From a virus, in the IMG/VR virus record IMGVR_UViG_3300031963_000512, positions 1 through 34,617 of that record: a DNA stretch of 34,617 bases. One strand, given 5' to 3'. The notes under the pieces were generated by a model. It saw only the letters and a list, made by a program, of their open reading frames with translations, did no database searches and had not been told where the DNA came from. Every line of letters begins with the position of its first letter. Position 1 is the stretch's first letter. Positions 1 through 24,154 of the stretch are shown here, piece after piece. The position numbers were made by a program, and so were the translations under genes.

Positions 1-1
1 G

Positions 2-67
2 CAGCACATGCTGCACAAAGACGGACGCTCGATGCGTGAACGATTTATTGACTGGGCTCTTAACTAG
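2..67 (+). CDS. 3' end of a gene cut by the window edge
   Basis: A reading frame is open from base 2 and ends at TAG 65-67, giving 21 C-terminal residues that finish in FIDWALN. The next gene's ribosome site (AGGAG, 66-70) overlaps this stop, the tight spacing used throughout this phage. That arrangement is the only support. The rest of the gene lies outside the window and no family can be named. Confidence 0.45.
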   Translation, partial: QHMLHKDGRSMRERFIDWALN

Positions 68-77
68 GAGAAAGCAA

Positions 78-248
78 ATGAATATGTTTGACGCAGTGAT
101 GATTGCTGAAGGCGAGATCGAGGCAGACGAAGACAAGCAATTGGAAGCGTGGCAGTTCCTGCATGACTCAGGACTTGCCTACCAACTGCAAGGCTGGTTC
201 GGACGCAAAGCACAAGAGTTGATCGAAGCAGGATTCATTCGAGAGTAA
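78..248 (+). CDS. Small hypothetical phage protein, 56 aa
   Basis: The ATG at 78 is preceded by AGGAGAAAGCA (66-76), a good ribosome site. An upstream in-frame ATG at 36 has no such site and would overlap the preceding gene, so 78 is preferred. The product is a small, acidic and probably helical protein. Its C-terminal half (GLAYQLQGWFGRKAQELIEAG) resembles short phage proteins I have seen without any assigned function. A strong hairpin terminator follows 9 bp after the stop, so this is the last gene of its transcript. Confidence 0.7.
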   Translation: MNMFDAVMIAEGEIEADEDKQLEAWQFLHDSGLAYQLQGWFGRKAQELIEAGFIRE

Positions 249-256
249 TTCTCCGG

Positions 257-290
257 GGGGCAGGGACTTCAAACCTGCCCCTTTTTATTT
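257..290 (+). terminator. Rho-independent terminator
   Basis: An 8-bp G/C-rich stem, GGGGCAGG (257-264) with CCTGCCCC (274-281), closes a 9-nt loop and is followed by a T tract (282-290). It lies just after the stop at 248 and separates that transcript from the promoter at 375-402. Confidence 0.85.
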
Positions 291-303
291 GGCCTCAAAT
301 TTT

Positions 304-327
304 TGATACCAGTTATGCGTGTGCGCG
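304..327. repeat. 24-bp direct repeat, copy 1
   Basis: A 24-bp stretch starting TGATACCAGTTATGCG and ending GTGCGCG is repeated exactly at 1363-1386. Both copies lie a short way downstream of a hairpin terminator and 60-90 bp upstream of a TTTAAA hexamer. It could be a regulatory or protein-binding site, or a recombination relic; the function is unknown. Confidence 0.8.
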
Positions 328-374
328 TGAGCCGGGGAGGGCCTCGCGTGCGTGGGCTTGCGTACGTTTAAATT

Positions 375-402
375 TTGCAACATAAGTTGCGATTCGTATA
401 AT
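375..402 (+). promoter_or_regulatory. Sigma70-type promoter with operator-like dyad
   Basis: A -35-like TTGCAA (375-380) is separated by 16 bp from a perfect -10 TATAAT (397-402). It lies 48 bp upstream of the ATG at 450, after a terminator. A short dyad, GCAAC-ATAA-GTTGC (377-390), overlaps the -35 element and spacer, where a repressor could block polymerase. A TTTAAA hexamer (367-372) and AT-rich bases sit just upstream, where an UP element would be. The operator and UP-element roles are inferred. Confidence 0.7.
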
Positions 403-449
403 GGGAACCGTCGAGGCAATCCCGCTTCGACGTTATCGGAGAAAAGCAT

Positions 450-1067
450 ATGTGGAAAGTATCAACTGCAGACAAGCTAGTCGGTGGACTATCCGCGCCG
501 GGCAAGATGCCGTGCAAGTCATTTTCGATTAGCGCGTTCTTGTGCCAGACCGGCGGGCGATTGTCCAAGATTCTCGGCTCGGTGTGCGCGATGTGCTACG
601 CACGCAAGGGTCGGTATATGTTCGCCAATGTTCAGGCCGCGTTAGCTCGCCGCATGACGGTGCTTGCGCGTGCTCTGGCAGATCCCGTGTTTCGTGGTGA
701 GTTTATTTCGGCGATGTCCTACCTGATCGCCCGGTCGCCGTGGTTCCGCTGGCATGACTCGGGTGACCTACAGTCAAAGGCGCACTTTGCTCTGATCTGT
801 GACATTGCGCGGGCGACGCCTGACACCATGCACTGGCTACCTACCAAGGAGCCGCGCTACGCCAAGGGCGATGTCCCGAGCAACTTAATTGTCAGAGTGT
901 CCGCGCCTCACATCGACCAGCCAGCACCGAATCACGCGCATACGTCAACGGTGGTATCGGATAAGAGCAAGGCGACGTGCCGGGCATTCGAGCGGCAAGG
1001 TAAGTGCGGCCCATGCCGGATGTGCTGGGACCCTACTGTGAAGAATGTTGCTTATTACCAACACTAA
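450..1067 (+). CDS. GP88-like cysteine-containing phage protein, 205 aa
   Basis: The GGAG at 438-441 sets the ATG at 450. The protein carries a Cys-rich segment (CAMCYARKG) near residue 50, then FRWHDSGDL near residue 100, and a C-terminal Cys cluster (CRAF...CGPCRMCW). This order matches the phage 'gene product 88' family as I remember it, in which CYA-type and W/H-SGD motifs recur. No biochemical role is known for that family; the cysteines could bind zinc or an iron-sulfur cluster, which is inference. The gene has its own promoter (375-402) and terminator (1073-1096), so it is probably a single-gene transcript. Confidence 0.72.
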   Translation: MWKVSTADKLVGGLSAPGKMPCKSFSISAFLCQTGGRLSKILGSVCAMCYARKGRYMFANVQAALARRMTVLARALADPVFRGEFISAMSYLIARSPWFRWHDSGDLQSKAHFALICDIARATPDTMHWLPTKEPRYAKGDVPSNLIVRVSAPHIDQPAPNHAHTSTVVSDKSKATCRAFERQGKCGPCRMCWDPTVKNVAYYQH

Positions 1068-1072
1068 CCAAC

Positions 1073-1096
1073 GGGGGCTTCGGCCCCCTCTTTTTA
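1073..1096 (+). terminator. Rho-independent terminator with TTCG loop
   Basis: GGGGGC (1073-1078), the tetraloop TTCG, and GCCCCC (1083-1088) are followed by TCTTTTT. It lies 6 bp after the stop at 1067. The same 16-base hairpin core recurs at 1325-1340. Confidence 0.85.
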
Positions 1097-1106
1097 GGAG
1101 ACTACG

Positions 1107-1310
1107 ATGGAATGCAAATTTAATGAAAACATGTTGCCGTCTTTGGGTGTCATGTGGCATTGGTTTTCGACTGAGGCAGAGGCCCTAGCGTTTGCAGACT
1201 GGGCGGAGCACGTAACTCGTCATTCACAGTATCCCTGCGAGGCGCAAGTAAAGATATGCGATGACCACCCTGAGCACGAACGGTTTGAGGTTAAGGTCCG
1301 CAATTGGTAG
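1107..1310 (+). CDS. Small hypothetical protein, 67 aa
   Basis: The ATG at 1107 follows TAGGAG at 1094-1099. The product begins MECKFNENML and has two aromatic-rich stretches (MWHWFSTEAEALAFADWAEH, then VKVRNW at the end). It is acidic and shows no signal peptide or membrane segment. Terminators lie on both sides (1073-1096 and 1325-1349), so either some polymerase reads through the first one or a promoter sits within it; I see no clear promoter. I do not recognise the family. Confidence 0.65.
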   Translation: MECKFNENMLPSLGVMWHWFSTEAEALAFADWAEHVTRHSQYPCEAQVKICDDHPEHERFEVKVRNW

Positions 1311-1324
1311 CGGGTTGATTTTCG

Positions 1325-1349
1325 GGGGGCTTCGGCCCCCTTTCTTTTT
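1325..1349 (+). terminator. Rho-independent terminator with TTCG loop
   Basis: GGGGGC (1325-1330), TTCG, and GCCCCC (1335-1340) are followed by TTTCTTTTT. It lies 14 bp after the stop at 1310 and marks the left boundary of the 700-bp stretch without a gene. Confidence 0.85.
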
Positions 1350-1362
1350 GTCTGCAGGCACC

Positions 1363-1386
1363 TGATACCAGTTATGCGTGTGCGCG
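1363..1386. repeat. 24-bp direct repeat, copy 2
   Basis: This is an exact match to 304-327, about 1.06 kb away. It again follows a terminator and precedes a TTTAAA hexamer (1452-1457). Confidence 0.8.
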
Positions 1387-1609
1387 AGGGGGTGGGGGTT
1401 TTTGCGAAGCCCCGGTTGCGTTTGACTTGGCCTTCTCGATTCGGCAGCGCATTTAAACGCCGCGCAGGACGCAGCGAGGGGCTTTGTGCGGTTTTGTGCG
1501 GGTCTCTGTGTGGCTTTGTGCGGTTTTGTGCGGACTAAAAAGCGAAACCGCACAAAATTTTTTCTCCGTAAGTGCTTGATTTACAAAGCAAAAACGACGT
1601 TTGCTCAAA

Positions 1610-1755
1610 AGTTTGTGTAGCTTGTGCGGCTTTTTTTGAGAGGGGGGCTCCGAAAACGGGATCGGCAGGAGAGGACGAGGAGGGGCAGCAAGCGCATGAC
1701 ATAGCCCGCCGAGAACCCCCCTATTTTCAAAAACACCGCACAAGCTACACAAACT
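1610..1755. repeat. Long inverted repeat / potential large hairpin
   Basis: A perfect 20-bp inverted repeat pairs 1610-1629 with 1736-1755, each arm holding one exact octamer and one variant. Inside it the arms continue imperfectly: a T tract and six G (1642-1647) face six C (1716-1721) and an A-rich run. The loop is about 70 nt. It could extrude as a cruciform or fold as a structured RNA. Confidence 0.7.
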
Positions 1756-1756
1756 A

Positions 1757-1807
1757 ACTTTTCTTATAAAATAATAATAATAAATCTCTATATAAAACAA
1801 TAACTTA
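1757..1807. other. AT-rich tract (candidate DNA unwinding element)
   Basis: About 50 bases are almost entirely A and T, including an ATAATAATAATAA run and TATATAAAA. The tract sits between the hairpin (1610-1755) and the right-hand octamers (1856-1906). It stands out sharply from the surrounding GC-balanced sequence and would melt easily. It also holds -10-like hexamers, so a promoter cannot be excluded. Confidence 0.5.
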
Positions 1808-1940
1808 CCCGCGCCAAAACCCCGTTTTTCTTGTGCAATTCCATAACTTCCAAATCCGCACAAATCCCCCAAAAACCGCACAAGACACACAAGCCTTTCC
1901 GCACAAAACAGATACATAGCAAAAAAGGTAGGTATCTGGG

Positions 1941-1968
1941 GTAGACGGGGCTTTAAACGTTCTATAAC
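1941..1968 (+). promoter_or_regulatory. Possible promoter for the rightward operon
   Basis: A -10-like TATAAC (1963-1968) lies 48 bp before the ATG at 2017, the same distance as the promoter before the gene at 450. The -35 region (around 1941-1947, TAGACG) is a poor match. A TTTAAA (1952-1957) lies in the spacer. The position, at the start of a long run of same-strand genes, is the main argument. Confidence 0.35.
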
Positions 1969-2016
1969 ATTCCTTCCACAACGCAGTCACGGTGACTGCC
2001 CAACAGGAGAAGCATC

Positions 2017-2352
2017 ATGCAAGGCGAACTGAACGTGACCAACCCCCTGACCAACACCAACCAATCCAACCTCGATAACTACCTCATCATCATCTACACC
2101 CGATTCGCCGGGGCTACGAACACGCAGGGCAGCCGGATCGTGGCGACCTCGACCTACTTCGGCAAGACAAGCAAGGTGAGCCACAACTACCTCCACGAGT
2201 ACGGCGGCACGGAGAACCACCTGACGGCAGCGTTTAAATTCCTCCGCAAGCACTACGGGGAGGCTGACGGGCACAACTTCGAGTTGGTCGGGCAGAGTGA
2301 CAACCCGACAGGCAGCGGCATGGCCTTCGTCTTCAAGCGAGTGGGAGTCTGA
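2017..2352 (+). CDS. Hypothetical protein, 111 aa
   Basis: This is the first gene after the origin-like region. AGGAGAAGCA at 2004-2013 sets the ATG at 2017. The first 20 residues are rich in Asn and Thr and are probably disordered; the rest looks like a mixed alpha/beta domain (YLIIIYTRFAGA near the start, GMAFVFKRVGV at the end). There is no recognisable motif or membrane segment. It is two bases away from the SprT-like gene that follows, so the two are probably translated together. I do not recognise the family. Confidence 0.75.
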   Translation: MQGELNVTNPLTNTNQSNLDNYLIIIYTRFAGATNTQGSRIVATSTYFGKTSKVSHNYLHEYGGTENHLTAAFKFLRKHYGEADGHNFELVGQSDNPTGSGMAFVFKRVGV

Positions 2353-2354
2353 AC

Positions 2355-2915
2355 ATGACACGCGAAGAATGGTTGAACGCCGGGCTCGATGCCCTCCGTC
2401 CGTGGTTTGAAGAGAAGGCGATGGTGAGTATCCCATTGGATACACGGGTGAGCGTGGGCTTCCCCGGCGGTGGCTCCGCCCGTAAGCGGATCGGGGAGTG
2501 CTGGGCTCGCAGAATGTCCAAGGACAACGTGAACGAGATCTTCATCAACCCGACACTCTCTGACACCGTGCAGATGCTCGATGTACTAGCCCATGAGGCG
2601 ATCCATGCCATCGACGACTGCGTGTCGGGACACAAAGGGGAATTTAAACGCATCGCCAAGGACATTGGCCTCGAAGGGAAGATGACCTCGACGAAGGCCG
2701 GGGAGAAGTTGAAGGCGGAGTTGGAGCGGATCATCAAGACCCTGCCGACGCTGACCCACGGGGCGTTGGACTTGAGCAAGCGGAAGAAGCAGCCTACCCG
2801 CCTCGTGAAGTTGGAGTGCGACAACTGCGGCATGATCCTGCGAACGACGGCGAAGTGGATCGAGCAGACGGGCGAACCCAACTGCGCTTGCGGCGGCCAC
2901 TTCTACTGCGCTTGA
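2355..2915 (+). CDS. SprT-like zinc metallopeptidase with zinc ribbon, 186 aa
   Basis: The zinc-peptidase motif HEAIH (residues 80-84) is followed by a short helical region, as in SprT/Spartan-like proteins. The C-terminus has a zinc ribbon with CDNC (155-158) and CAC (177-179). This HExxH-plus-ribbon order is typical of small phage and bacterial SprT-like proteins, whose eukaryotic relatives degrade proteins crosslinked to DNA. The actual substrate here is unknown. HEAIH keeps both zinc-binding histidines and the catalytic Glu. The start is two bases after the previous stop, with a GGGAG ribosome site inside the upstream gene. The position among early genes fits a host-takeover or DNA-maintenance role, which is inference. 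Confidence 0.78.
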   Translation: MTREEWLNAGLDALRPWFEEKAMVSIPLDTRVSVGFPGGGSARKRIGECWARRMSKDNVNEIFINPTLSDTVQMLDVLAHEAIHAIDDCVSGHKGEFKRIAKDIGLEGKMTSTKAGEKLKAELERIIKTLPTLTHGALDLSKRKKQPTRLVKLECDNCGMILRTTAKWIEQTGEPNCACGGHFYCA

Positions 2916-2971
2916 CAGGGATTTAAACCCGATCAATAATGCAACATACCTTACACAACGGAGAAGCAGAC

Positions 2972-3253
2972 ATGACCACACAACACACCCCTGCCCCTTG
3001 GACGGTTTCTGACAACGCGATTTATGGCAGCAGCGGTTTGATTAAGCCTCTGATCGCTTACTTGGATGACCGTTTCGCTGATGAGGAGGCAGCGAATAAC
3101 GCTCGACTGATAGCAGCAGCACCGGAACTTATGGCCTGTCTGGTCGAACTGTCCAATTACGTCTTTGATGAGTACACCGCATCGCATCCGTTATGCGAAA
3201 GAGCAGCGGAAGCGCGTGAATTGATAAAGCGAGTAAAAGGAGAAGCAAAATGA
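2972..3253 (+). CDS. Hypothetical phage protein, 93 aa
   Basis: The ATG at 2972 follows CGGAGAAGCA (2959-2968) and is preferred over an in-frame ATG at 2939 that lacks a ribosome site. The layout is familiar from phages of Proteobacteria: an N-terminal TPAPWTVS stretch, a short beta region, then an Asn-Ala-rich helix (NNARLIAAAPELMACLVEL). Proteins of this type are common in phages and have no assigned role. A 56-bp gap before the ATG holds a TTTAAA hexamer (2922). The stop overlaps the next start (ATGA). Confidence 0.78.
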   Translation: MTTQHTPAPWTVSDNAIYGSSGLIKPLIAYLDDRFADEEAANNARLIAAAPELMACLVELSNYVFDEYTASHPLCERAAEARELIKRVKGEAK

Positions 3254-3471
3254 TTCCGTTGAAGAACACCGAGAAGGGCAGGAAGAAAGACTTGGGTGCG
3301 CTCTACGGCAAAGCCCTCGACAAGCACAACGAACTGGAGCGAGACCTCGCCCGAATCATGCACCGTTGGGAGAAGTCCCGCGCCGTGCTCAAGCGGATCG
3401 AGAAGCGCATGGACGAGGCACAAGCAGCAGCGTGGGATGCGAACGCAGCCTACCTTGAAGACTCAATTTAA
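3250..3471 (+). CDS. Small coiled-coil protein, 73 aa
   Basis: The start overlaps the upstream stop (ATGA, 3250-3253), with AAGGAGAAGCA just before it. The product is highly charged and almost entirely helical (HNELERDLARIMHRWEKSRA, then RIEKRMDEAQAAAWDANAAY), with heptad-like spacing over residues 20-70. It could dimerise or act as a small adaptor. No family is recognised. The end of the gene overlaps a TTTAAA hexamer (3467). Confidence 0.72.
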   Translation: MIPLKNTEKGRKKDLGALYGKALDKHNELERDLARIMHRWEKSRAVLKRIEKRMDEAQAAAWDANAAYLEDSI

Positions 3472-3486
3472 ATCAGGAGAAAAGCA

Positions 3487-3642
3487 ATGAACGTCACAGA
3501 TCAAGTTAGAAAAGAAGTCGATGAGTTGGTTGACCGCCTGTCACGCGATGAGGTGCAGGACTTGTTGACTGTACTGCGCGAGAGGTTTGCGCGGGAGAAC
3601 GAGGAGTTGCGGCGGATGTACCGAGAGGAGGACGCAGCATGA
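3487..3642 (+). CDS. Small helical protein, 51 aa
   Basis: AGGAGAAAAGCA (3475-3486) directly precedes the ATG at 3487. The 51-residue product begins MNVTDQVRKEVDELVDRL and is strongly amphipathic and charged (RERFARENEELRRMYREE), most likely one helical hairpin. The stop overlaps the next start (ATGA at 3639-3642). It is short, but the excellent ribosome site and the overlaps on its downstream side make it credible. The function is unknown. Confidence 0.65.
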   Translation: MNVTDQVRKEVDELVDRLSRDEVQDLLTVLRERFARENEELRRMYREEDAA

Positions 3643-3809
3643 AAACTTATGACGTAACCGTTCGTGGCACGGTGACCAAGACTATTCGGGTCAAGGCCGA
3701 AGATATCGATGAGGCAATCGAGGAGGCACACGAGGAATTCAACACGGATTTCAACATGGCCGAGCACTACGACGAGGAGACGGTGAGCGTGAAGGAGGTA
3801 AAGTTATGA
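3639..3809 (+). CDS. DpnD/PcfM-like small protein, copy 1, 56 aa
   Basis: The product runs MKTYDVTVRGTVTKTIRVKA, then EDIDEAIEEAHEEF: two beta strands followed by an acidic helix. That is the layout of the DpnD/PcfM family of small proteins found on phages and mobile elements. The start and stop both overlap neighbours by ATGA. The gene just downstream (3806-3997) encodes a protein of the same layout, suggesting an old tandem duplication. No molecular function is established for the family. Confidence 0.65.
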   Translation: MKTYDVTVRGTVTKTIRVKAEDIDEAIEEAHEEFNTDFNMAEHYDEETVSVKEVKL

Positions 3810-3997
3810 AGAAGTTTTTAGTGTCGCTCGCCCGGATCGAGCACCGGATCTATCAGATCGAGGTCGAGGCAGCGGATGCCATCGAGGCTGAACAACTGGC
3901 CGACGAGATGTGGACGGAGGACGACGAGGCGTTTACTGACTTCGGCTGTGTCCATGCCGAGGAGTACATCGAGCAAGTTAAGGAGCAAGCAGCATGA
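3806..3997 (+). CDS. DpnD/PcfM-like small protein, copy 2, 63 aa
   Basis: The product begins MKKFLVSLARIEHRIYQIEV and continues with an acidic helix (EAADAIEAEQLADEMW), the same strand-strand-helix plan as the upstream gene at 3639. AAGGAGG (3793-3799) lies at ideal distance from the ATG. The stop overlaps the next start (ATGA, 3994-3997). Family membership is judged from layout and a few shared positions only. Confidence 0.65.
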   Translation: MKKFLVSLARIEHRIYQIEVEAADAIEAEQLADEMWTEDDEAFTDFGCVHAEEYIEQVKEQAA

Positions 3998-4311
3998 AAC
4001 AAGTCGCGACCAAGACATTTAAATCCTCTCTCATCATGGAGGGATCGTGGGGTGAGCGATCACTTGGAGAACACGAGAGCGTGATGGCGCTGTATATAAC
4101 CGCCGACGGGAGGCGGGGCTTCATCGAGTGGGATGTGCCTGACCTCGAAGAGTTGACCGAGATCGGGCTTTGGTTCGACCAAGATGAGGAAGACCCAGAC
4201 CCCTCGATCCATTCGGTGCTGACCGATTACGATGGTGTGTTCTCGCTCCCTGCCGAGGCAGTCAAGATGCTAGAGGAGTTTGGTGTGCGAGTCGGAGTTG
4301 AATTTAGATAG
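3994..4311 (+). CDS. Hypothetical acidic protein, 105 aa
   Basis: The start is coupled to the upstream stop by ATGA. The product has a beta-rich N-terminal half (SVMALYITADGRRGFIEWDV) and an acidic second half (DQDEEDPDPSIHSVLTDYDG, PAEAVKMLEEFGV). There are no cysteines or membrane segments. It looks like a small globular phage protein of no known family. It is the last gene of this coupled run; a 63-bp gap follows, with short GATTA repeats but no clear promoter. Confidence 0.7.
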   Translation: MKQVATKTFKSSLIMEGSWGERSLGEHESVMALYITADGRRGFIEWDVPDLEELTEIGLWFDQDEEDPDPSIHSVLTDYDGVFSLPAEAVKMLEEFGVRVGVEFR

Positions 4312-4374
4312 ACAACCTCAAAAGATTAGATTAGATTCAAATCGTAACTTACATTCATCAAAGGAAAAGCAATC

Positions 4375-4755
4375 ATGAGCAAAGATCAAAATTGGTGGGA
4401 AGACCAAGACCGTGACGCCGCTTGGATCAAGCAGCAGGAAGAAGAACTCCAACGTCACGACGAGGAGAGCGACGAGCCTATCTATGCTGATGGGTTCGAT
4501 GACGCCCTGTTAGGTCTGGGTGTGCAGTTCAATCAGCGCGTAGCGATCTATGACTACGACAAGTGCCTCAACATTCTTGAGAAGAGCGGGATGCCGCCCG
4601 AGGATGCCATCGAGTACATGGAATACAACGTGCTAGGCGCGTACATGGGTCGCCGCACTCCAGTCTTTTTAAGCAGATACATCGAGCGCAAGCCCAAGCG
4701 TGTGCGATCCCAGATCACCGGCCAGTTGGAGTTGGACTTCGGAGATACGCCATGA
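4375..4755 (+). CDS. Hypothetical protein, 126 aa
   Basis: AAAGGAAAAGCA (4359-4370) precedes the ATG at 4375. The first 40 residues are very acidic and rich in Gln and Trp (NWWEDQDRDAAWIKQQEEEL). The middle contains DYDKCLNILEKSGMPPEDAI followed by YMEYNVLGAYMGRRTPVFL, a pattern common in uncharacterised phage proteins. The stop overlaps the next start (ATGA). The function is unknown. Confidence 0.75.
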   Translation: MSKDQNWWEDQDRDAAWIKQQEEELQRHDEESDEPIYADGFDDALLGLGVQFNQRVAIYDYDKCLNILEKSGMPPEDAIEYMEYNVLGAYMGRRTPVFLSRYIERKPKRVRSQITGQLELDFGDTP

Positions 4756-5144
4756 AGGACATTACCTCTGGCGTGTGGGAGCGCGGCACATGGGAGAAGG
4801 TCGAGTGGGACTTTTATCACCGGATCGCCCAAAAGAAATCCTCGTATCAGGGTTTCATCAATGCGCGGTATGAAGACCTAGTAGCGGCGTTTGGTGAGCC
4901 ACGCGAGTGCGCTGATGGGAAAGTACAGGTCGAGTGGCTGATCGCGTTCTACGATGAAGAGCAAGACAAATACATCGCGGCATCGGTCTACGATTGGAAG
5001 ATGGGTGGGATGTACTGGAGAGATGGCGCGTACTACGGACTCACGCCAGAGATGATCACCACATGGCACATCGGTGGGATGAATTTAAACGCCGTTGACT
5101 GCATCAAGTCGGTGTTGGCTAGAGAGGTGAGGGCTGCGGCATGA
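4752..5144 (+). CDS. Hypothetical phage protein, 130 aa
   Basis: The start is coupled by ATGA to the gene before. The central part (YEDLVAAFGEPRECADGKVQ, then VEWLIAFYDEE...AASVYDWK and WHIGGMN) matches a pattern I have seen in many phage proteins: a Phe-Gly-Glu-Pro turn, a beta strand with VEW, a YDWK strand and a terminal helix. None has a known role to my knowledge. A TTTAAA occurs at 5084, where it makes Leu-Asn with a TTA codon. The stop overlaps the nuclease gene that follows. Confidence 0.75.
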   Translation: MKDITSGVWERGTWEKVEWDFYHRIAQKKSSYQGFINARYEDLVAAFGEPRECADGKVQVEWLIAFYDEEQDKYIAASVYDWKMGGMYWRDGAYYGLTPEMITTWHIGGMNLNAVDCIKSVLAREVRAAA

Positions 5145-5425
5145 CCCCCGAGGCCAAGGTCAAAGCCAAGGTTAAGAAGACCCTGACCGAGATGGGGGCG
5201 TATTACGCCATGCCTGTGGCATCGGGCTACGGGCATTCAGGAACGCCGGACTTTCTGATCTGCTACAGAAACCAGTTCCTAGCAGTAGAGACGAAGGCAA
5301 AAGGAAACAAGCCCACCGCCTTGCAAGAGGCAACCATGCAAAGGATCAGGGACGCAGGTGGGCGCGTCTTTGTGATCGACGAAACCAACGTAGAGAACCT
5401 ACGCAAACTGATTGAGGAGATTTAA
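5141..5425 (+). CDS. VRR-NUC domain endonuclease, 94 aa
   Basis: The whole protein is one VRR-NUC domain, a small PD-(D/E)xK nuclease fold. SGTPDFLI gives the catalytic Asp37, LAVETKAK gives Glu50 and Lys52, and NKPTALQEA follows, all in the usual order. Stand-alone phage VRR-NUC proteins of about 90-110 residues are common, and related domains cleave branched or flap DNA, so a role in replication or recombination is likely. The gene is coupled upstream by ATGA, and its TAA is directly followed by the next ATG. Confidence 0.9.
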   Translation: MTPEAKVKAKVKKTLTEMGAYYAMPVASGYGHSGTPDFLICYRNQFLAVETKAKGNKPTALQEATMQRIRDAGGRVFVIDETNVENLRKLIEEI

Positions 5426-6031
5426 ATGAAGATGACTGACAAAGTACGCCGCATGTTGGCGAAGGGTGCGAGCACCGCCGAGATTGCCAAGAAGTTGAAG
5501 ATTAGACCCGCTTACGTTCACACCGTGAAGTGGTTGGACAAGAAGAAAAAGAAAACGCAGCCCGAGCGCAGCCACGACCCGAAGGTGGTGAAGGCCGAGA
5601 AGAAATATCTCAAGGCCGTGAAGACGAGCAAGCCGTCGAAGATTGTGAAGGCGGTGAAAGAGATGAAGCAGGCACTCGATGTGATTGAGAAGCCGAAGAT
5701 CACGCGCAAAGAATTGTTGAATGAGTTGATGCCGGGGATAAATGCTTGTTTCGATTTGGATAAGAAGCCGACGAAGTTGTTCGTCCAACCCCAACACGAA
5801 TACGCAGCCATGAAAATTCTTGCTGATAACGATCTCGTCAATCACCCATCGCACTACAAGTCTGGCGGCATCGAGACCATCGATTTCATCGAGGCGAAGG
5901 ATTTAAATTATCGCTTGGGCAACGTCGTGAAGTATGTCAGCCGTGCGGGTAAGAAGGGTGACCCGATCCAAGATCTGGAGAAGGCTGCGTGGTACTTGCA
6001 GCGTGAGATCAACGCGAGAAAGAACGCATGA
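5426..6031 (+). CDS. HTH plus DUF3310 fusion protein, 201 aa
   Basis: The N-terminus (residues 1-40) is a helix-turn-helix of the resolvase/Trp-repressor style (RMLAKGASTAEIAKKLKIRP, then AYVHTVKWL). A long Lys-rich linker (about 42-110) follows. The C-terminus (139-197) is a clear DUF3310 domain: NHPSHYKSGGIETIDFIEAK, then LNYRLGNVVKYVSRAGKKGD and LEKAAWYLQREI. DUF3310 proteins of phages are sometimes called nucleotide kinases, but the biochemistry is uncertain. A GAGGAG ribosome site (5413-5418) lies in the upstream gene. The HTH suggests DNA binding; whether the two domains work together is unknown. Confidence 0.85.
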   Translation: MKMTDKVRRMLAKGASTAEIAKKLKIRPAYVHTVKWLDKKKKKTQPERSHDPKVVKAEKKYLKAVKTSKPSKIVKAVKEMKQALDVIEKPKITRKELLNELMPGINACFDLDKKPTKLFVQPQHEYAAMKILADNDLVNHPSHYKSGGIETIDFIEAKDLNYRLGNVVKYVSRAGKKGDPIQDLEKAAWYLQREINARKNA

Positions 6032-6477
6032 ACGCGAATTTAAAAGAACTACAAAATAAGTACAAAGATATTTTACTTGCTCCTGTAGATGAACTTGAAT
6101 TTACGATTCGCGTTGCGAACTGTTTTACATCGGAGGGTATCAAGCAGGTAAAAGACCTTGTGCAGTTAACTGAAGTAGAACTGTTTCGGATGCCCGGTTT
6201 TGGAAGAAAATCTTTGCAAGAAGTGAAAGAAGTATTGGCAGGTTACAACTTGAGTTTAAATACAAAGTTGTTGGATGAAGATCCTCCGTTGGGAATGTCG
6301 TCACAGGTTCTTCCTAGTGTGAATCAGTCTGTTAGGCACAGTCTTAACTACACGCTGCGCGTTGCCGCCGATCAAGCACATTCTAATTGCGTGAACAACG
6401 AACCAGAAAAAGCACAGTTGTTTATAAACATAATAGTAGATATTTTAGAGTTATTGACTGAGAGGAAGAACGCATGA
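6028..6477 (+). CDS. Stand-alone RNA polymerase alpha C-terminal domain protein, 149 aa
   Basis: Residues 15-80 match the C-terminal domain of the bacterial RNA polymerase alpha subunit without a gap, compared from memory with the E. coli protein: LAPVDELEFTIRVANC, DLVQLTEVELFRMPGFGRKS, then LQEVKEVLAGYNLSL. DNA-contact residues R265, N268, C269, G296, K298, S299 and E302 of E. coli correspond to R28, N31, C32, G59, K61, S62 and E65, all kept. The acidic patch that touches sigma is also kept (D21, E22, E24). There is no N-terminal assembly domain, so it cannot replace alpha; it could act as a free UP-element-binding factor or adaptor. Residues 85-149 are an added helical region I do not recognise. 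The gene is visibly richer in A/T codons than its neighbours and is coupled on both sides (ATGA). Confidence 0.9.
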   Translation: MNANLKELQNKYKDILLAPVDELEFTIRVANCFTSEGIKQVKDLVQLTEVELFRMPGFGRKSLQEVKEVLAGYNLSLNTKLLDEDPPLGMSSQVLPSVNQSVRHSLNYTLRVAADQAHSNCVNNEPEKAQLFINIIVDILELLTERKNA

Positions 6478-7472
6478 TCGGGAAGGACTACCTCCCGCAG
6501 TACGCTGCCGAGGCGGTGAGGGATCTGGAGGAGGCGGCAAGGCGATTGAGAGTGTTTGCTGACGCAACTCGCGGCAAGGAGCAAGAGAAGTACGCAAAGA
6601 TGTATGTGGCTCACCTTGTAGTAGCCGATTTGCTGCGGCGAGCCGAACACGTAGTGCTTCCTCCAAACGGAGAAATCTATCGGGACAACAAACACACGGG
6701 GCCGACGAATCAGGAGTGCGTATCTCTGACAGGGTTACCTGCTCCGATTACCTCGTTTGAATTTCCGTGGACGCACAACATGGAGGGGCCTTTAAATCCG
6801 AAATACGAGTATCACGGTGAGGAGTCACAATTAGAGAATCCACCGAAGCGAATCGCTTTGGTGTTGGACGAAAAACAATTAAGTCCGGAGACAGCGGAAG
6901 ATGAGGAAAAAACGCGGATCGCGTTTTATAGCGTTTGCTACTACGAATCCATAAAGAGATGGGCGTTTTCCCCACACTCCCTTACGGTGTTTGATCCGTT
7001 TCAAGTGCAAAGGTTTGAAGATAGACCAAAAGGGTGGGCAGCCAAAGCGCAAGTCCTTGACATACTGGAAGCCGAGTACATAGATCAAAAAGATATAGAT
7101 CGGGGCGCGGCAGTCTTCAGCGAATATCAATCGGACATTAGCCTCGTAGTGCAAGCCTGTCATGCGCTGCGCGTAGGCGCGACGTTGGAGACCCGCAAGG
7201 ATAAGTCATACACACGCACTCGCACGTTTGAGAAGGCAGGCGTGGGTGGGTTTGAGTATCACGTGCTGAAGTTGCCACACGGCACGGTCAAAGAAACGCT
7301 GGGCACACGGGAGGGCAGCGAGCGAGATGGCCCGAGGTATCACTTCCGACGCGCTCACTTGCGTAACTTATCGACCGGGGCACAGACTTTTGTGCGATCC
7401 TGCTTTGTCGGTAACCGCGAGAAGGGCGTGGTCGAGAAGACATACAAGATGGAGAAGGAGGTTGCAGCATGA
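6474..7472 (+). CDS. Hypothetical protein, 332 aa
   Basis: The start is coupled by ATGA to the alpha-CTD gene. The N-terminal 60 residues are helical and rich in Ala, Arg and Glu (AAEAVRDLEEAARRLRVFAD). The C-terminal end, YHFRRAHLRNLSTGAQTFVR followed by SCFVGNREKGVVEKTYKM, resembles a short module seen at the end of various phage and plasmid proteins (an R-R-x-H-x-R pattern followed by V-G). No catalytic motif is clear. It may act with its neighbour, but nothing in the sequence proves this. Confidence 0.8.
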   Translation: MIGKDYLPQYAAEAVRDLEEAARRLRVFADATRGKEQEKYAKMYVAHLVVADLLRRAEHVVLPPNGEIYRDNKHTGPTNQECVSLTGLPAPITSFEFPWTHNMEGPLNPKYEYHGEESQLENPPKRIALVLDEKQLSPETAEDEEKTRIAFYSVCYYESIKRWAFSPHSLTVFDPFQVQRFEDRPKGWAAKAQVLDILEAEYIDQKDIDRGAAVFSEYQSDISLVVQACHALRVGATLETRKDKSYTRTRTFEKAGVGGFEYHVLKLPHGTVKETLGTREGSERDGPRYHFRRAHLRNLSTGAQTFVRSCFVGNREKGVVEKTYKMEKEVAA

Positions 7473-8110
7473 AGCCGATAGAGATTGGTCGCAAGCGATT
7501 GAGTGACATCGTGTGGGGCATCATCGACGAGAAGGTGGGCGACTTCCCGTATGAAAAGATTGAGAAGATCGTTGAAGATCAGCAAGCACTACGATCTCAG
7601 GCCGATTACAACACCGGATCTGTGCCGGTGGATGACGCGTTTGAGTTGTACAAGGTGGTGAAGTTCTTTCAGCCCAAGGTCATTGCCGAGGTGGGTACGT
7701 TCATCGGTGTGTCCACGATGGTGATGGATCTGGCTACGCCTGATGTGACTGTGATCCATACATGCGATGCGTCGAACAATATCAATCTGGAGATGCTTGC
7801 GAACGTCATTCAGTATCCCAAGACGCTCTCTTGTGACATGTTCAGAGACCTCGCTGCAAAAGAAGTGAAGGTTGATCTCGTGTACCTCGACGGACGACTG
7901 GGTCAGGATGACATCGAGCCGTTAAGTAAGATCGTTCACGAGAAGACTGTGGTTATCTTCGACGACTTTGAAGGGGTTGAGAAAGGCGTAGTCAACGCGT
8001 TGATGATCGAAGCCCCGAACCGTATGCTGATCTATCCTCGCGATGGTAGGAAGACAGCGATGTCCATTCCATTCACCTTACTGCATATCATTCCGCAGGA
8101 GGCCGTATGA
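7469..8110 (+). CDS. SAM-dependent methyltransferase-like protein, 213 aa
   Basis: A Rossmann-type methyltransferase core is visible. VIAEVGTFIGVSTMVMDLA (motif I, with the acidic residue E74 and a G-T-F-I-G loop) is followed by VIHTCDASN (motif II), VDLVYLDGRLG (Asp141, as in class I O-methyltransferases) and VVIFDDFEG. This layout is like the Methyltransf_24 / O-methyltransferase group. The substrate is unknown. The gene opens a cassette with glycosyltransferases, an oxygenase and a sulfotransferase, so methylation of a sugar or of a modified protein is plausible. It is coupled at both ends by ATGA. Confidence 0.75.
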   Translation: MKPIEIGRKRLSDIVWGIIDEKVGDFPYEKIEKIVEDQQALRSQADYNTGSVPVDDAFELYKVVKFFQPKVIAEVGTFIGVSTMVMDLATPDVTVIHTCDASNNINLEMLANVIQYPKTLSCDMFRDLAAKEVKVDLVYLDGRLGQDDIEPLSKIVHEKTVVIFDDFEGVEKGVVNALMIEAPNRMLIYPRDGRKTAMSIPFTLLHIIPQEAV

Positions 8111-8223
8111 TCCGTTGGTTATTAGACTTTTTTAAACGCCGCGACGAGTATCGCCGCCGTGAGTGGGCACACGTACCACCCCCGAGTTGGGGTGCATCAA
8201 GAGGCGGGAGGGATTACTGGTGA
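8107..8223 (+). CDS. Very small basic protein, 38 aa
   Basis: The ATG at 8107 overlaps the stop of the methyltransferase gene (ATGA), and the frame stays open for 38 codons to TGA 8221-8223. The upstream AGGAGG-like bases (GCAGGAGGCC, 8096-8104) are very close to the ATG. The product starts MIRWLLDFFKRRDEYRRREW, a hydrophobic then strongly basic helix, and ends GGRDYW. It could touch the membrane. Its size makes it uncertain, but it fills an otherwise empty gap in a tightly packed operon. Confidence 0.5.
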   Translation: MIRWLLDFFKRRDEYRRREWAHVPPPSWGASRGGRDYW

Positions 8224-8243
8224 ACATAGGAGATACGAAGACC

Positions 8244-8465
8244 ATGATTATTAAATTCTTAAAATCTTTTTTTGAGTCCAAGCAGAAACTCAGAGCGCGG
8301 ATTGAATTTCTTGAGGAGCGTTTGGCTCAGAGTGAAATACGTTGGGTTGAACAAGAAAAGGAACTCGACAGATTGAGAGAGGACGTTAAGTTTCTTGACC
8401 CCGGTTGTTATGAGCGTGGCTGCGTGGCGAGAGATATGTTTGATATTCATATCAAGGACGCTTGA
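8244..8465 (+). CDS. Small coiled-coil protein, 73 aa
   Basis: The ATG at 8244 has AGGAG at 8228-8232, slightly far away (11 bp); an in-frame GTG at 8220 is an alternative start. The product begins MIIKFLKSFFESKQKLRARI, a short hydrophobic stretch, and continues with a clear coiled coil (EFLEERLAQSEIRWVEQEKE, LDRLREDVKFL). The end has two cysteines (GCYERGCVARDMFD). It might be a small membrane-linked or accessory subunit for the glycosyltransferase downstream; that is speculative. Confidence 0.6.
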   Translation: MIIKFLKSFFESKQKLRARIEFLEERLAQSEIRWVEQEKELDRLREDVKFLDPGCYERGCVARDMFDIHIKDA

Positions 8466-8474
8466 GGAAAAAGT

Positions 8475-10376
8475 ATGCCCGAAGAAAAGAAAGAATCGCA
8501 GACGCTGCCCCAGATGATGGACGCGGTGTTTAAACACGCTACGGAATTGTCGAGCCAAGACAAGTTCGACGAGGCTGCTAATGCGTTCAGTAACATCGCA
8601 GACTGCATTGGCATGATGACAGGCGCTATCTTGCAGCGTGGTCGATGCCATTGGGAGATGCGACGATGGTCGCTTGCCAAGCGAGACTTTAATTCCGCGA
8701 TTGCCATCGATCCGACGAACGCAGATGTGCAATGGACGAAGGCACTCCTCGATCTTCAGTTGCACGACTTTGAAAACGGGTGGCGCGGTTACGAGTCCCG
8801 GTGGGGCAGTAACTCTTTCAAGACGGCCAAACTTCATACCACTCGCCCGCAATGGCAGCCGGGCATGGAGTGCGATCACTTGTTTGTATGGCAAGAGCAA
8901 GGCGTTGGTGACCAGATCATCTACACAACCTTCCTGCCGCTCCTGAAGAAGCAGGTCAAACGCCTGACGGTGATGATCGATCATCGTCTTGTGCCGCTAT
9001 ACAAAAGATCATTCCCTGACATCGAGTTCATTGGACCGACAGATCGTTGTAAGTTGGGGAAGAACGCCGCTCATCTGCCGATGGGTAGCATCTCGCAGCA
9101 CTTCATTAAGAAATTGTCAGACCTCCCGAAGAACGTATCGACTAACTATCTCAAGCCTGATTTTGAGAAGCGCGACCTGCTCCGTAACCTGATGGGCGTG
9201 ACTGACAAGGACTTTGTAGTCGGCATCTCGTGGTCAAGTAAGGCGGGCGTCATCGGACAGCATAAGAGCATGGCTTTAGAGGCAATGCTTCCGTTGTTCA
9301 ACATCCCCAACGTCAAGTTCGTAAACCTGCAGTACTCCGACATGTTGCAGGAGATCGCAGAGTTTGAAGAGAAGCATGACAAGAAGATCATCACGGTCAA
9401 CGCCATCAATAACTTCTTGGATCTGGACGGCCTCGCTTCGTTGATCTCTGCGTGCAATGCAGTGGTCTCTGTCAGCAATGCCACGGTGCATCTGGCTGCT
9501 GCGATAGGCAAGCCAGTGTTCTTGCTTGATGCCAATAAGTTGTTCTTCTGGAATCACCGAGTCGGGCGTAAGAACCTGTGGTATCCGTCCGTTCGTATCT
9601 ATCCTCGCGGCAACATGCTTGAGCCGTGGACGCTACCCGTCGAGGCGGCAGCGAAAGATTTAAAGGCCATGCGCGATATGCAGAGTGGCTTGCTGAAGAC
9701 AGAAACAATAGAGACTTTCGTGTTTTTTCATGTGGGAAGCGATATCTCGTACCCGCAGAAGATGGTCAGTTCGATTCGGATATCGAACCCGGCAGCAGAG
9801 ATCATCATGTGTACCGACAAGGCGACGCCCGAAGTACTTGGGGTTGACCAGCGCATCGAGGACGAGGTTGATCGCACTCGACTCATGACCGAGCGCCTAC
9901 GCATGTACGGGATGGCGAAACTGACTTACCCGGCGATCTATCTCGACACAGACATGTTGGTGACCAAGAAGATCAAGCCCGCCGAGATGCTGGGTGACAA
10001 CGATATTGCGCTTTGTCAGAGGAGTTTCGAGCGGGACGCCGAGTTTAACACCGAGCAGCGTGGGCTCTCGTTCCCCGAGTACGCAGGGAAAACCCTTATG
10101 GAGGTGTACCCGTACCTTGCTTGTACAATCGTCGCCAAGGATCACACGGTGTGGGATAGGCTGCTTGAGATCCTGCGCGACATGGACCCGAAGTACCACG
10201 TGTGGTACGGGGATCAGGAAGCCTTGAAGGTTATCGCCACAGAACGTCGAGGCAAGGTCACGGTGTTCAGCGAGAGTGAGTACGGCTGCTTGCCAGAGCA
10301 TATCGGCACGGCTGACTCTAAGATCTTCCACTTCAAAGGCCCGCACCGTAAGCAGATGTTTGAGGACGTAGCGTGA
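8475..10376 (+). CDS. TPR / GT-B / GT-A multidomain glycosyltransferase, 633 aa
   Basis: Three parts are visible. Residues 15-95 look like TPR helices (ELSSQDKFDEAANAFSNIAD, then RCHWEMRRWSLAKRDFNSAI). Residues 130-390 resemble the GT9-like, GT-B fold region found in bacterial TPR-glycosyltransferases (WQEQGVGDQIIYTTFLPLL, VGISWSSKAG, CNAVVSVSNATVHLAAAIGK). From about 410 to the end there is a GT-A domain with the metal-binding D491-T-D493 in IYLDTDMLV and a GDQEAL motif, like GT8-type enzymes. TPR domains often hold protein acceptors, as in O-GlcNAc transferases. It may therefore glycosylate a protein and carry two activities in one chain. The stop overlaps the next start (GTGA). Confidence 0.8.
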   Translation: MPEEKKESQTLPQMMDAVFKHATELSSQDKFDEAANAFSNIADCIGMMTGAILQRGRCHWEMRRWSLAKRDFNSAIAIDPTNADVQWTKALLDLQLHDFENGWRGYESRWGSNSFKTAKLHTTRPQWQPGMECDHLFVWQEQGVGDQIIYTTFLPLLKKQVKRLTVMIDHRLVPLYKRSFPDIEFIGPTDRCKLGKNAAHLPMGSISQHFIKKLSDLPKNVSTNYLKPDFEKRDLLRNLMGVTDKDFVVGISWSSKAGVIGQHKSMALEAMLPLFNIPNVKFVNLQYSDMLQEIAEFEEKHDKKIITVNAINNFLDLDGLASLISACNAVVSVSNATVHLAAAIGKPVFLLDANKLFFWNHRVGRKNLWYPSVRIYPRGNMLEPWTLPVEAAAKDLKAMRDMQSGLLKTETIETFVFFHVGSDISYPQKMVSSIRISNPAAEIIMCTDKATPEVLGVDQRIEDEVDRTRLMTERLRMYGMAKLTYPAIYLDTDMLVTKKIKPAEMLGDNDIALCQRSFERDAEFNTEQRGLSFPEYAGKTLMEVYPYLACTIVAKDHTVWDRLLEILRDMDPKYHVWYGDQEALKVIATERRGKVTVFSESEYGCLPEHIGTADSKIFHFKGPHRKQMFEDVA

Positions 10377-11044: not shown

Positions 11045-11045
11045 A

Positions 11046-11291
11046 GTGTCTGACGAAGAAGAGGTTTATCTAGTTAACCCTGACGGCACATCGCCCGGTA
11101 AGAAAGAAATTACATGGGTTAAAATTGGTGACGACGGAAGTTTGGAATACATCAACTGGGAAACAATTAATGAGTACTCGAAAGAGTTTGATGAACTTGG
11201 TTCAAACGGAAGGCGTACTCAGACCCATGTTATCTGCAAACTGTTAACCCTTATTCGTGATGAAACGCGAAAAGAATTGGAGATCAAATGA
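11046..11291 (+). CDS. Small acidic hypothetical protein, 81 aa
   Basis: A GTG start at 11046 follows AAGGAG (11034-11039), and a TTTAAA hexamer lies between them. The product is acidic (SDEEEVYLVNPDGTSPGKKE, WVKIGDDGSLEYINWETINE) and ends in a charged helix (LTLIRDETRKELEIK). No family is recognised. Base composition drops toward A/T here and stays low through the next two genes. The stop overlaps the oxygenase start (ATGATG). Confidence 0.68.
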   Translation: MSDEEEVYLVNPDGTSPGKKEITWVKIGDDGSLEYINWETINEYSKEFDELGSNGRRTQTHVICKLLTLIRDETRKELEIK

Positions 11292-13804: not shown

Positions 13805-13835
13805 ATTGGAGGCACTACGTGGAGATCGAAGATGA
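13620..13835 (+). CDS. Small Gln-rich coiled-coil protein, 71 aa
   Basis: GTG 13620 follows a very strong ribosome site (AAGGAGGAGGAA, about 13606-13617). The product starts MSITYDDKSPPGAWKDEMKA, has a QTQQQQIDRALQNIRRAG helix, and ends in a heptad-like coiled coil (LELVTLRNELEALRGDRR). Codon use looks more normal than in the overlapping frame of 13397-13804. The function is unknown. Confidence 0.65.
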   Translation: MSITYDDKSPPGAWKDEMKAAPWGYGQTQQQQIDRALQNIRRAGLSEEATVISLELVTLRNELEALRGDRR

Positions 13836-21304: not shown

Positions 21305-24154
21305 ATGAGAAAACAATTTTACGAAAAAGCACTACCATCGCAGGGCGTCTACTGCGTTGCGTTGATCAATGCCGAGACGAAACGAACACGACATGAGTAC
21401 GTCTACAACGTAACGGAATTGGAAGAGGTACTAGCTAAGTACTCCAACCAGACTGAATACAACGTATACGTCGCTCCCTGCTCGTTCCAAGACGAGAGTC
21501 GTAACTCCAACAATGCGTTGTTTGGGCGCTCGTTCTTTGTTGACCTTGATGTCAATCACGGTAGCGTCTGTTACACGAGCAAAGAAGAAGCTTTAAATGC
21601 ACTAACTGAGTTCCTCAACGAGCATGACTTGCCTCCGCCTGTTCGGATCGACTCCGGTGGTGGTATTCAAGCGTACTGGCTGTTTGAGGAAGACGTATCG
21701 GCGGAAGAATGGAAGGTTGTTGCGGCGCTGTTCAAACAGTTCTGCATGGACAATGGCCTTCTGATCGACCCTGCTGTGACGGCAGATGCTGCTCGCATCA
21801 TGCGTTGCCCTGAGACGATGAACCTTCGGGTGCAGGCTGCCTCTAAGTTTATTGACGACGAGTTCAACCAGTACGACTTTGGTGCATTTAAATCTTTCCT
21901 AGGCGGCGAAGAGGCCGTCGAGTCTATCGAGCAGATCAAGACTAAGTCTCGCGGGATGGATGAAGAGACCAAGGCCATCGCCCGTCTCGACAACTTTCAA
22001 GACTCGTTCGCTGTGCTGGCTGAGAAGAGTCTCTCCGGCAACGGCTGTAACCAGATTAAGTACGCCATCGAGAACCGCGAGACCCTGCCATACGGTCTAT
22101 GGTTCGGGGCCTTGTCGATTGCTCAACGATGCGTCGATAGAGAAGGTGCGATCCGTGCTGTATCTGAAGGACACCCGGACTACACGTACGAGAAAGCAGA
22201 GCAGAAAGCCCAAGAGACGGCCAAGGCTAGTGGCCCGTGGACATGCACTAAGTTTGGCGAGGAGTTCCCGGACGGCTGCGAAGACTGTCCATTCCGGGGG
22301 CAGTTCACATCGCCGATTGCCTTGGCGCGACAGGTCCGGTTACCGACACAGGAGACCGCTCCACTCCCAGTGCCCGAAGAGGACGCAGTATGGGGCGAGG
22401 CTAGCAATCAAGACCTACTAATTTTCCCGGAGTATTTAGAGCCGTTCAGCCGCAGCGCACGGGGCAGCATCATGTACAGTCCACCGGCTACCATCGACAA
22501 GACCGGTAAAGTGGTGCAGCACCCACCGATAGAGTTGATAACGCGTCCGGTGTACCCATACAAGCGTATGTTCAGCCCGCATGACGGCGAATGTTTCATG
22601 GTTCGAACAGTCATGCCGATGGACGGATACCGGGAATTCATGCTGCCGGTAGATCAAGTGTATTCGCAGGAGCATCTGACTAAGGCGCTCGTGCAAAGCG
22701 GGGCGACGTTTGACCCCGAGAAGACTAAGTACGTTATGAAATATTTCATTCGCTGGGCAGAGTACCTGTCGAGCGTGGGGAGGGCAGAACAAATGAGAAT
22801 GCAAATGGGATGGACGGCAGAGCGAGACGGCTTTGTCATCGGCAACAATGAAGTTAAGCCTGACGGAGAAGTGGTCAAAGCCGCTTCGTCTCCGCTGGTC
22901 CGTGGCGTGGCACAGCATTTAAAGCCTGCTGGCGACTACGCGGTTTGGAAGTGGGCGACGACTATTTTCAATCGCCCCGGTTTCGAGATGCAGGCATTCG
23001 GAATGATGACCGGGTTCGGTTCTCCTCTGATGAGCCTGACGACGGTGGCGGGGGCATCGCTCTGCTTCCTGAGCGCCAACTCAGGTACAGGTAAGACCGG
23101 CTCGCTCTACGGTGCAATCAGCATCTGGGGGCATCCCAAAGAACTGAGCCTTGTGGATCAAGGTGCGACACAGAACGGTTTCATCGGACGTTATCTGAAC
23201 CTGAAGAACCTGCCACTTGGTATTGACGAGGCATCCAACGCTAAGGCTGAGGATCTGGCTAAGCTGATTCACGCGGTGTCGCACGGTAAGGCCAAGGTTC
23301 GAATGCAGTCCTCGGTTAATGCTGAGCGCGAGCACGAAGCCTCGGCATCGATGATTACGTTCTTCACGACGAACCAATCCATCTACAACAAGTTGGAGAC
23401 ACTCAAGGCGCGACCTGATGGTGAGATGGCCCGCCTCGTTGAGTTCACGGTCAAGCAGCCGGACTGGTTCAACGACGACGTGGGTATCGCGCACTTCGAT
23501 AAATTTAAATATCACTACGGGCACGCTGGCATTGAGTTCATCCAGCACTACTACAAGCGCGGTGAGCTTTACGTCAAAGACTTAGTGGATAAGTGGTACA
23601 AGCGTTTCAATGACGCTGTGGGTAACGACACGGGCTACCGCTTCTATCGTAACTTGGTAGCTGCCACATTCGCTGGCGGTGAACTGGCCGTCGAGGCTGG
23701 GATCGTCGAACTTGACCTTGAGCGTATTTTCAACGCCGTCATACTGGAGATCATTCAATTGAAGGACGATACCGTTAAGATCAATAAGACCGACTACCCT
23801 GCGCTGGTCACCGAGTTCCTGCTCAACAACTGGGCTGGCATGTTGGTGTTGGACGACAACAATCGCGTGGTGCAGGAGCCTATGTACGGCAGGCCACTGA
23901 TCGCCCGGTCAGAGATTACAGACAGTATGCAGTACATCTCCAAGAACGAATTTAAGAAATTCTTGGTAGAAAAGCAGGTAAGTAGCCGTGAGTTTGAGAA
24001 GGCTATGGAGCAGCACGGCCTCATTAAGAAGATCGACCGGCATCGTCTCTCGACGGGTTGGAACAAAGGTATTCATGCGAATGCGGTTGCAGTGTATGCC
24101 ATCAAAGCTAAGTTGCCGGACGAGTTGTTGAAGCAGAATGAATCAAGTACCTGA
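21305..24154 (+). CDS. Primase-helicase fusion (AEP-like primase + DUF927-like ATPase), 949 aa
   Basis: The N-terminal 200 residues look like an archaeo-eukaryotic primase: FFVDLDVNHG gives D80 and D82, followed by RIDSGGGIQAYWLF and DPAVTADAARIMRCPETMNL. Residues 250-340 hold a region common in phage primases (GCNQIKYAIE, ALSIAQRCVDREGAIRAVSE) with cysteines near 313-330 (C-T-K-F...CEDCPF) that may bind zinc. From about 540 there is a DUF927-like ATPase with Walker A NSGTGKT (K597). It would prime and unwind DNA at the fork. No ribosome site is visible before the ATG at 21305, unlike most genes here. Confidence 0.85.
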   Translation: MRKQFYEKALPSQGVYCVALINAETKRTRHEYVYNVTELEEVLAKYSNQTEYNVYVAPCSFQDESRNSNNALFGRSFFVDLDVNHGSVCYTSKEEALNALTEFLNEHDLPPPVRIDSGGGIQAYWLFEEDVSAEEWKVVAALFKQFCMDNGLLIDPAVTADAARIMRCPETMNLRVQAASKFIDDEFNQYDFGAFKSFLGGEEAVESIEQIKTKSRGMDEETKAIARLDNFQDSFAVLAEKSLSGNGCNQIKYAIENRETLPYGLWFGALSIAQRCVDREGAIRAVSEGHPDYTYEKAEQKAQETAKASGPWTCTKFGEEFPDGCEDCPFRGQFTSPIALARQVRLPTQETAPLPVPEEDAVWGEASNQDLLIFPEYLEPFSRSARGSIMYSPPATIDKTGKVVQHPPIELITRPVYPYKRMFSPHDGECFMVRTVMPMDGYREFMLPVDQVYSQEHLTKALVQSGATFDPEKTKYVMKYFIRWAEYLSSVGRAEQMRMQMGWTAERDGFVIGNNEVKPDGEVVKAASSPLVRGVAQHLKPAGDYAVWKWATTIFNRPGFEMQAFGMMTGFGSPLMSLTTVAGASLCFLSANSGTGKTGSLYGAISIWGHPKELSLVDQGATQNGFIGRYLNLKNLPLGIDEASNAKAEDLAKLIHAVSHGKAKVRMQSSVNAEREHEASASMITFFTTNQSIYNKLETLKARPDGEMARLVEFTVKQPDWFNDDVGIAHFDKFKYHYGHAGIEFIQHYYKRGELYVKDLVDKWYKRFNDAVGNDTGYRFYRNLVAATFAGGELAVEAGIVELDLERIFNAVILEIIQLKDDTVKINKTDYPALVTEFLLNNWAGMLVLDDNNRVVQEPMYGRPLIARSEITDSMQYISKNEFKKFLVEKQVSSREFEKAMEQHGLIKKIDRHRLSTGWNKGIHANAVAVYAIKAKLPDELLKQNESST

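Follow-up and report, generated by a model that had tools for sequence, protein, structure and literature searches.

A conserved iteron array as the probable replication origin of a group of environmental phages

The window discussed here is the whole of a linear virus record of 34,617 bases, which is a portion of a larger phage. It contains a gene-free stretch of 450 bases in which one octamer is repeated many times, and the question is what these repeats do. A sequence-only reading had suggested an origin or a control hub. As judged from the comparisons below, the stretch is very probably the start site of phage DNA copying.

The rightward early genes of the window encode a family-A DNA polymerase, an SNF2-type helicase, an exonuclease, a small HTH protein, and a primase-helicase, and are followed by leftward late genes. 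Other genes have also been observed. The gene at 6028–6477 encodes a protein with the C-terminal domain of RNA polymerase alpha (Pfam, 3.7e-19), for which a weak match was found in the relative G007 and none in most relatives. Likely sugar or small-molecule genes (methyltransferase, glycosyltransferases, 2OG-Fe(II) oxygenase, and sulfotransferase) occupy 7469–15144, and a leftward gene of 2127 aa (24335–30718) adjoins the end of the early operon.

The octamer array and its surroundings

The octamer TTGTGCGG or its complement CCGCACAA is present in ten exact copies between 1484 and 1906, a span of 423 bp, and nowhere else in the 34,617 bp, which bears out the earlier count of ten unique copies within 425 bp. 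The exact copies start at 1484, 1494, 1516, and 1526 (+), 1548 (-), 1622 (+), and 1736, 1856, 1876, and 1899 (-). TTGTGCGG is the most clustered 8-mer of the window, followed by an overlapping shifted word with seven copies and then by five copies, and the largest 8-mer cluster in 30 Markov simulations has three to five copies. Near-match octamers are found at 1613 (TTGTGTAG), 1506 (CTGTGTGG), 1745 (CTACACAA), and 1885 (ACACACAA). As a result, several sites become pairs 9–10 bp apart. The features of the array and of the proteins discussed with it are listed below, where L006 is a near relative.

1484..1491, +: octamer iteron TTGTGCGG, left block; exact match, same place in L006
1494..1501, +: octamer iteron TTGTGCGG, left block; exact match, same place in L006
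1506..1513, +: degenerate iteron CTGTGTGG (CTGTGCGG in L006), from the sequence
1516..1523, +: octamer iteron TTGTGCGG, left block; exact match, same place in L006
1526..1533, +: octamer iteron TTGTGCGG, left block; exact match, same place in L006
1548..1555, -: inverted octamer iteron, end of left block; exact match, inverted copy here in most relatives
1568..1581, +: conserved 14-mer GTAAGTGCTTGATT, left copy; in nearly all arrays, with any octamer
1610..1647, +: left arm of central hairpin, with iteron pair TTGTGTAG (1613) and TTGTGCGG (1622); from folding
1622..1629, +: octamer iteron TTGTGCGG, central pair; exact match, same place in L006
1718..1755, -: right arm of central hairpin, with inverted central iteron pair (1736, 1745); from folding
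1736..1743, -: octamer iteron, inverted central pair; exact match, same place in L006
1749..1808, no strand: AT-rich tract (85% A+T), probable melting site; AT-rich stretch within every array
1795..1808, -: conserved 14-mer, inverted right copy GTAAGTTATTGTTT; in nearly all arrays
1856..1863, -: octamer iteron, right block; exact match, same place in L006
1876..1883, -: octamer iteron, right block; exact match, same place in L006
1885..1892, -: degenerate iteron ACACACAA, right block; from the sequence
1899..1906, -: octamer iteron, right block; exact match, same place in L006
1952..1968, +: conserved right flank TTTAAACGTTCTATAAC; identical in L006 and L008
20931..21245, +: small HTH protein; present in all array genomes tested
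21305..24154, +: DUF927 primase-helicase, 949 aa, candidate initiator; Pfam DUF927, profile and fold matches to 5dgk and 8tch
23903..24106, +: winged-helix-like C-terminal domain of the primase-helicase, candidate octamer-binding domain

The array consists of a left block, a central repeat pair, a G-rich loop, an inverted pair that closes the hairpin, an AT-rich tract, and an inverted right block, with a single copy of a conserved 14-mer (GTAAGTNNTTGATT) to either side. The long hairpin and the AT-rich tract that had been noticed amid the repeats are both real. The hairpin arms (1610–1647 and 1718–1755) give -43.2 kcal/mol as DNA (z = -8.6), and the 60 bases from 1749 are 85% A+T. The array also lies, as had been claimed, within the largest gap between likely genes (1310–2017), directly after a terminator-like hairpin at 1324–1341. 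The word TTTAAACG does flank the array on both sides, but it is not a mark of the array because it is common across the window, with 12 occurrences; TTTAAA occurs 40 times in the whole window compared to ~5.5 expected from trinucleotide content. A 23-bp element, GATACCAGTTATGCGTGTGCGCG, is repeated at 305–327 and 1364–1386, at 9109, 9699, and 10508 in L006, and at 3095 and 4491 in L008. This element is placed in the early region of the window and of its close relatives, behind terminators and before promoters or the array.

A minus-strand ORF at 1453–1917 covers the array. It is not listed as a single ORF in L006, and the region has therefore been taken as non-coding. The stretch could instead act as a structured RNA, in which stems keep the inverted octamers complementary, and as RNA it folds better than shuffled sequences (z = -6.5). 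Inverted repeats alone give such folding, however, and an RNA would leave the direct repeats 8–10 bp apart and the AT-rich tract unexplained. An Rfam search of the stretch gave no match, and this explanation is considered extremely improbable.

L006 extends further to the left than the window and shows large terminase and portal genes running leftward, with the rightward early genes beginning ~3 kb left of the array. The array is thus inside the rightward early region and not at the point where transcription diverges. The switch in cumulative GC skew that had been associated with an origin here is absent from the array; the skew turns, at its minimum, 1.2–3.4 kb to the left, near the change of transcription strand. 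Since the turn lies near this change and off the array, the skew is neutral for the origin reading.

Iterons may also serve regulation, partition, or packaging. The array could be a transcription control hub, at which an octamer-bound phage regulator switches the rightward early operon. It does lie upstream of this long operon, and it is followed by the conserved promoter-like flank TTTAAACGTTCTATAAC, which is possibly the operon's promoter. On the other hand, operators rarely take the form of at least ten inverted sites spread across 420 bp together with a hairpin and an AT-rich tract, replication is favoured by the symmetric plan and by the initiator-type helicase, and divergent transcription begins ~3 kb left of the array, so that a control hub appears improbable. 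A packaging (pac/cos) or partition site is very improbable. Repeat arrays by terminase genes have such a role in some phages, and the L006 terminase is ~3 kb left of the array, but several early genes separate the array from the terminase genes and the plan matches that of iteron origins.

Array plan and octamer classes in related phages

The same array plan has been found in 35 records of related phages, using an unbiased repeat scan for clustered 8-mers and site mapping. Every record used, apart from that of the phage KPP25 described below, comes from an uncultured phage, and the majority are fragments; contigs stopping short of the array or of the helicase were left out. In L006, all ten octamers are present at identical spacing. 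None of the 80 octamer bases differs between L006 and the window, compared to 31 of the 411 other aligned bases (Fisher p = 0.005). In L008/G001, the array is at the same place and has the same plan with the octamer TTGTGTCA, and the neighbouring proteins are 74–92% identical. The octamer is therefore invariant in L006, as the sequence-only reading would have it for close relatives, while elsewhere the array is kept with a different octamer.

The octamers across the relatives include TTGTGTCA, TTGTGCCGG, TTGTTCCA, TTGTTCTA, TGTTCTG, CGTTCCA, and GGTTCCA. The GT step is common to all octamer classes and TGT to most of them. Sites are near-uniform inside each array and differ between arrays. The exceptions are G010 (L186, 140–650) and G011 (L201), whose arrays mix TTGTGTC, TTGTGCGG, and TTGTGCCGG and are possibly intermediates of a specificity switch.

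The general plan starts with a left block, made up of two to five sites in forward orientation and, in most cases, a single inverted site, followed by the 14-mer GTAAGTNNTTGATT, a forward pair 8–9 bp apart, and the loop. To the right are the inverted pair, the AT-rich tract, the inverted 14-mer, and a right block with some three inverted sites. Nearly all arrays have forward sites on the left and inverted sites on the right. The sequence of the 14-mer is constant across octamer classes, and it is weak or absent in G031, G019, and G039. After near-duplicates were dropped, the remaining 31 arrays hold 299 exact sites, compared to 106 elsewhere in 806 kb. The distance between neighbouring same-strand sites in these 31 arrays is mostly 8, 9, or 10 bp, a spacing that would be suitable for a protein binding along a single face of the double helix.

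In some relatives with the same helicase, no array was found in up to 18 kb upstream, so an array at that place may be absent from some members. Also, 25 further helicase-bearing records yielded few additional arrays. A DNA search of phage records with positions 1–20000 of the window gave no match. Exact 18-mer matches in the unrelated contigs L004 and L005 were not used, as about one chance match is expected at the size of the collection by our estimate. In L005, a 38-kb phage contig, GGCTTTGTGCGGTTTTGTGCGG followed by loose TGTGCGGT repeats was observed at 8793–8840 and may be due to chance.

Candidate octamer-binding proteins

The sequence-only reading had named three possible binders: the primase-helicase (21305), the small HTH protein (20931), and the DUF3310-HTH protein (5426). 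The first is favoured here and the other two are poorer candidates. Replication proteins were compared in 24 genomes with both the array and replication genes. VRR-NUC, DNA polymerase, exonuclease, helicase 18101, 19587, the SSB-like protein, HTH protein 20931, and the primase-helicase are present in all 24, and 17645 is present in 23. The DUF3310-HTH protein is missing from 3 of the 24 and another HTH protein, 13388, from 17, and both were rejected as octamer binders. The recognition helix of HTH 13388 differs between the window and G001.

The DUF927 domain of the primase-helicase (E = 5e-19 in the window) was found in 23 of 23 relatives. Profile searches match the protein to the self-loading initiator helicases Cch (5dgk, E = 1.9e-18), in an alignment reaching the C-terminal part, and SaPIbov1 Rep (8tch, E = 1.9e-13). 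The same two structures are the best fold matches to a model of residues 350–949 (E = 2e-19 and 3.5e-15, respectively). The TM-scores are 0.37–0.49, and these modest values are possibly due to a different domain placement in the model. When the C-terminal 150 residues are modelled alone, they adopt a winged-helix-type fold with 5dgk and 8tch again as top matches, at E values of 0.03–0.3 that are weak by themselves. When the helicase alignment was searched against the genomes of bacteria and archaea, no relative was obtained.

If the C-terminal domain recognises the octamers, the two may be expected to change together. Among 580 windows from nine near-universal proteins, the helicase C-terminus ranks top for divergence at octamer switches and conservation otherwise (z = 4.5), with an identity of 0.55 at the switches compared to 0.81 expected. 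This positive result is drawn from one clade with three octamers, represented by the window, G001, and G007, in which the C-termini are 54–62% identical and the core is 80–84% identical. In close pairs that share an octamer, the C-terminal similarity mostly equals or exceeds that of the rest of the protein, with G035/G030 as an exception. A contrary close pair is G055 (TGTGTCA) and G047 (TGTTCCA), with 65% identity in the C-terminus compared to 60% in the core. A partial Mantel test on 22 genomes found C-terminal divergence unrelated to octamer distance (r = -0.03, p = 0.6). A column-by-column search for specificity residues gave no clear winner; R912, which is arginine in 6 of 6 TGTG phages and lysine in 16 of 18 TGTT phages, is only suggestive.

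In another version of the origin reading, the octamers are bound by a different phage protein, such as HTH 20931, which recruits the helicase. Each of the 24 array genomes carries the gene of HTH 20931, which adjoins the helicase gene. However, the recognition helix of this protein is identical in the window and G001 despite differences in three of the eight octamer bases, and the protein shows no divergence at octamer switches (z = -0.2 in the same scan). This conserved helix would fit the conserved 14-mer better than the octamers, and the 14-mer is possibly the binding site of HTH 20931. Recruitment by another protein is thus considered unlikely, and the sequence comparisons make the primase-helicase a likely binder of the octamers.

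Proposed origin and comparison with known systems

An origin is the best reading of the array because its plan is conserved in 35 records, its octamers are invariant in L006, and an initiator-type DUF927 helicase is encoded by the phage; the origin proposed by the sequence-only reading is supported to this extent. It appears very likely that the array is the phage replication origin, and probable that the DUF927 primase-helicase binds the octamer iterons via its C-terminal winged-helix-like domain, that facing complexes melt the AT-rich tract (1749–1808), and that iterons and domain switch together. Two such helicase complexes would probably form on the oppositely oriented iteron sets flanking the hairpin and the AT-rich tract. 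After melting, they would load onto the strands, where the N-terminal primase would start synthesis for the phage A-family DNA polymerase. A lineage that changes its binding domain would change all iterons of its array too, and the origin plan would stay. The sequences themselves show the array with its plan and conservation, the repeated change of octamer, the relationship between the helicase and known initiators, and the C-terminal divergence of the helicase in one clade that switches octamers. Binding, melting, loading, and the direction of replication are what we infer here.

Among the closest known systems are the SaPI/PICI replicons, with SaPIbov1 Rep and its ori. The C-terminal domain of SaPI Rep recognises the origin iterons, and that of Cch2 binds the putative Cch2 origin (PMC7581432). 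PICI origins always have two iteron sets around an AT-rich region (PMC6092414). The phages studied here share with the SaPI/PICI replicons a DUF927-related initiator helicase and two iteron sets around an AT-rich region, but differ in detail, as the inverted central pair of the window lies to the left of the AT-rich tract. The SaPI and PICI origin is directly 3' of rep, whereas the array is 19.8 kb from the helicase gene in the window and ~15–20 kb in relatives. Unlike the satellites, these phages are of full size and encode a terminase, a portal, and a DNA polymerase of their own, and they have extra conserved 14-mers, a central hairpin, and a primase fused to the helicase. Cch of SCCmec type IV (5dgk) is the best profile and fold match to the phage helicase, C-terminal part included, but the phage protein has an N-terminal primase; no Cch origin is given in the literature cited here. 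P4 alpha combines primase, helicase, and a winged-helix origin-binding domain in one protein that acts on origin repeats (PMC4234260). By this published description, it resembles the phage protein as a single primase-helicase with a winged-helix domain, and it differs in having a bacterial-type (Toprim) primase.

A satellite-type origin in full-size environmental phages suggests an origin system common to phages and satellites. Tentatively, and with slightly less than even confidence, we propose a widespread group of free-living phages that have a satellite-type origin of fixed plan, with iterons exchanged whole in step with the initiator domain, and at least eight specificities that possibly bar competitors or satellites. 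If so, the origin of one phage may be protected from being used or attacked by competing phages or satellites. The natural arrays, more than thirty in number and of at least eight octamer classes, also form a data set on joint change of initiator and site specificity.

The cultured Pseudomonas phage KPP25, whose DNA polymerase is 34% identical, offers a place for testing part of the origin system. In the corresponding early region, its intergenic stretch 26219–26895 has eight TGTTACGA and four TGTCACGA around an AT-rich tract, compared to five and four across the remaining 43 kb that were examined. This array was picked out by eye in hindsight and carries less weight than the other arrays. A limited literature search found no report of a KPP25 origin. 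The KPP25 helicase, gp57, differs in belonging to another family (DUF5906).

A further comparable system is that of the PLE satellites of Vibrio cholerae, in which the DNA-binding domain of RepA and the origin covary as a module (PMC8263062). PLE RepA is a RepA_N initiator without helicase or primase (PMC7145576), and the PLE iterons differ from the octamers described here in being semi-palindromes of ~30 bp.
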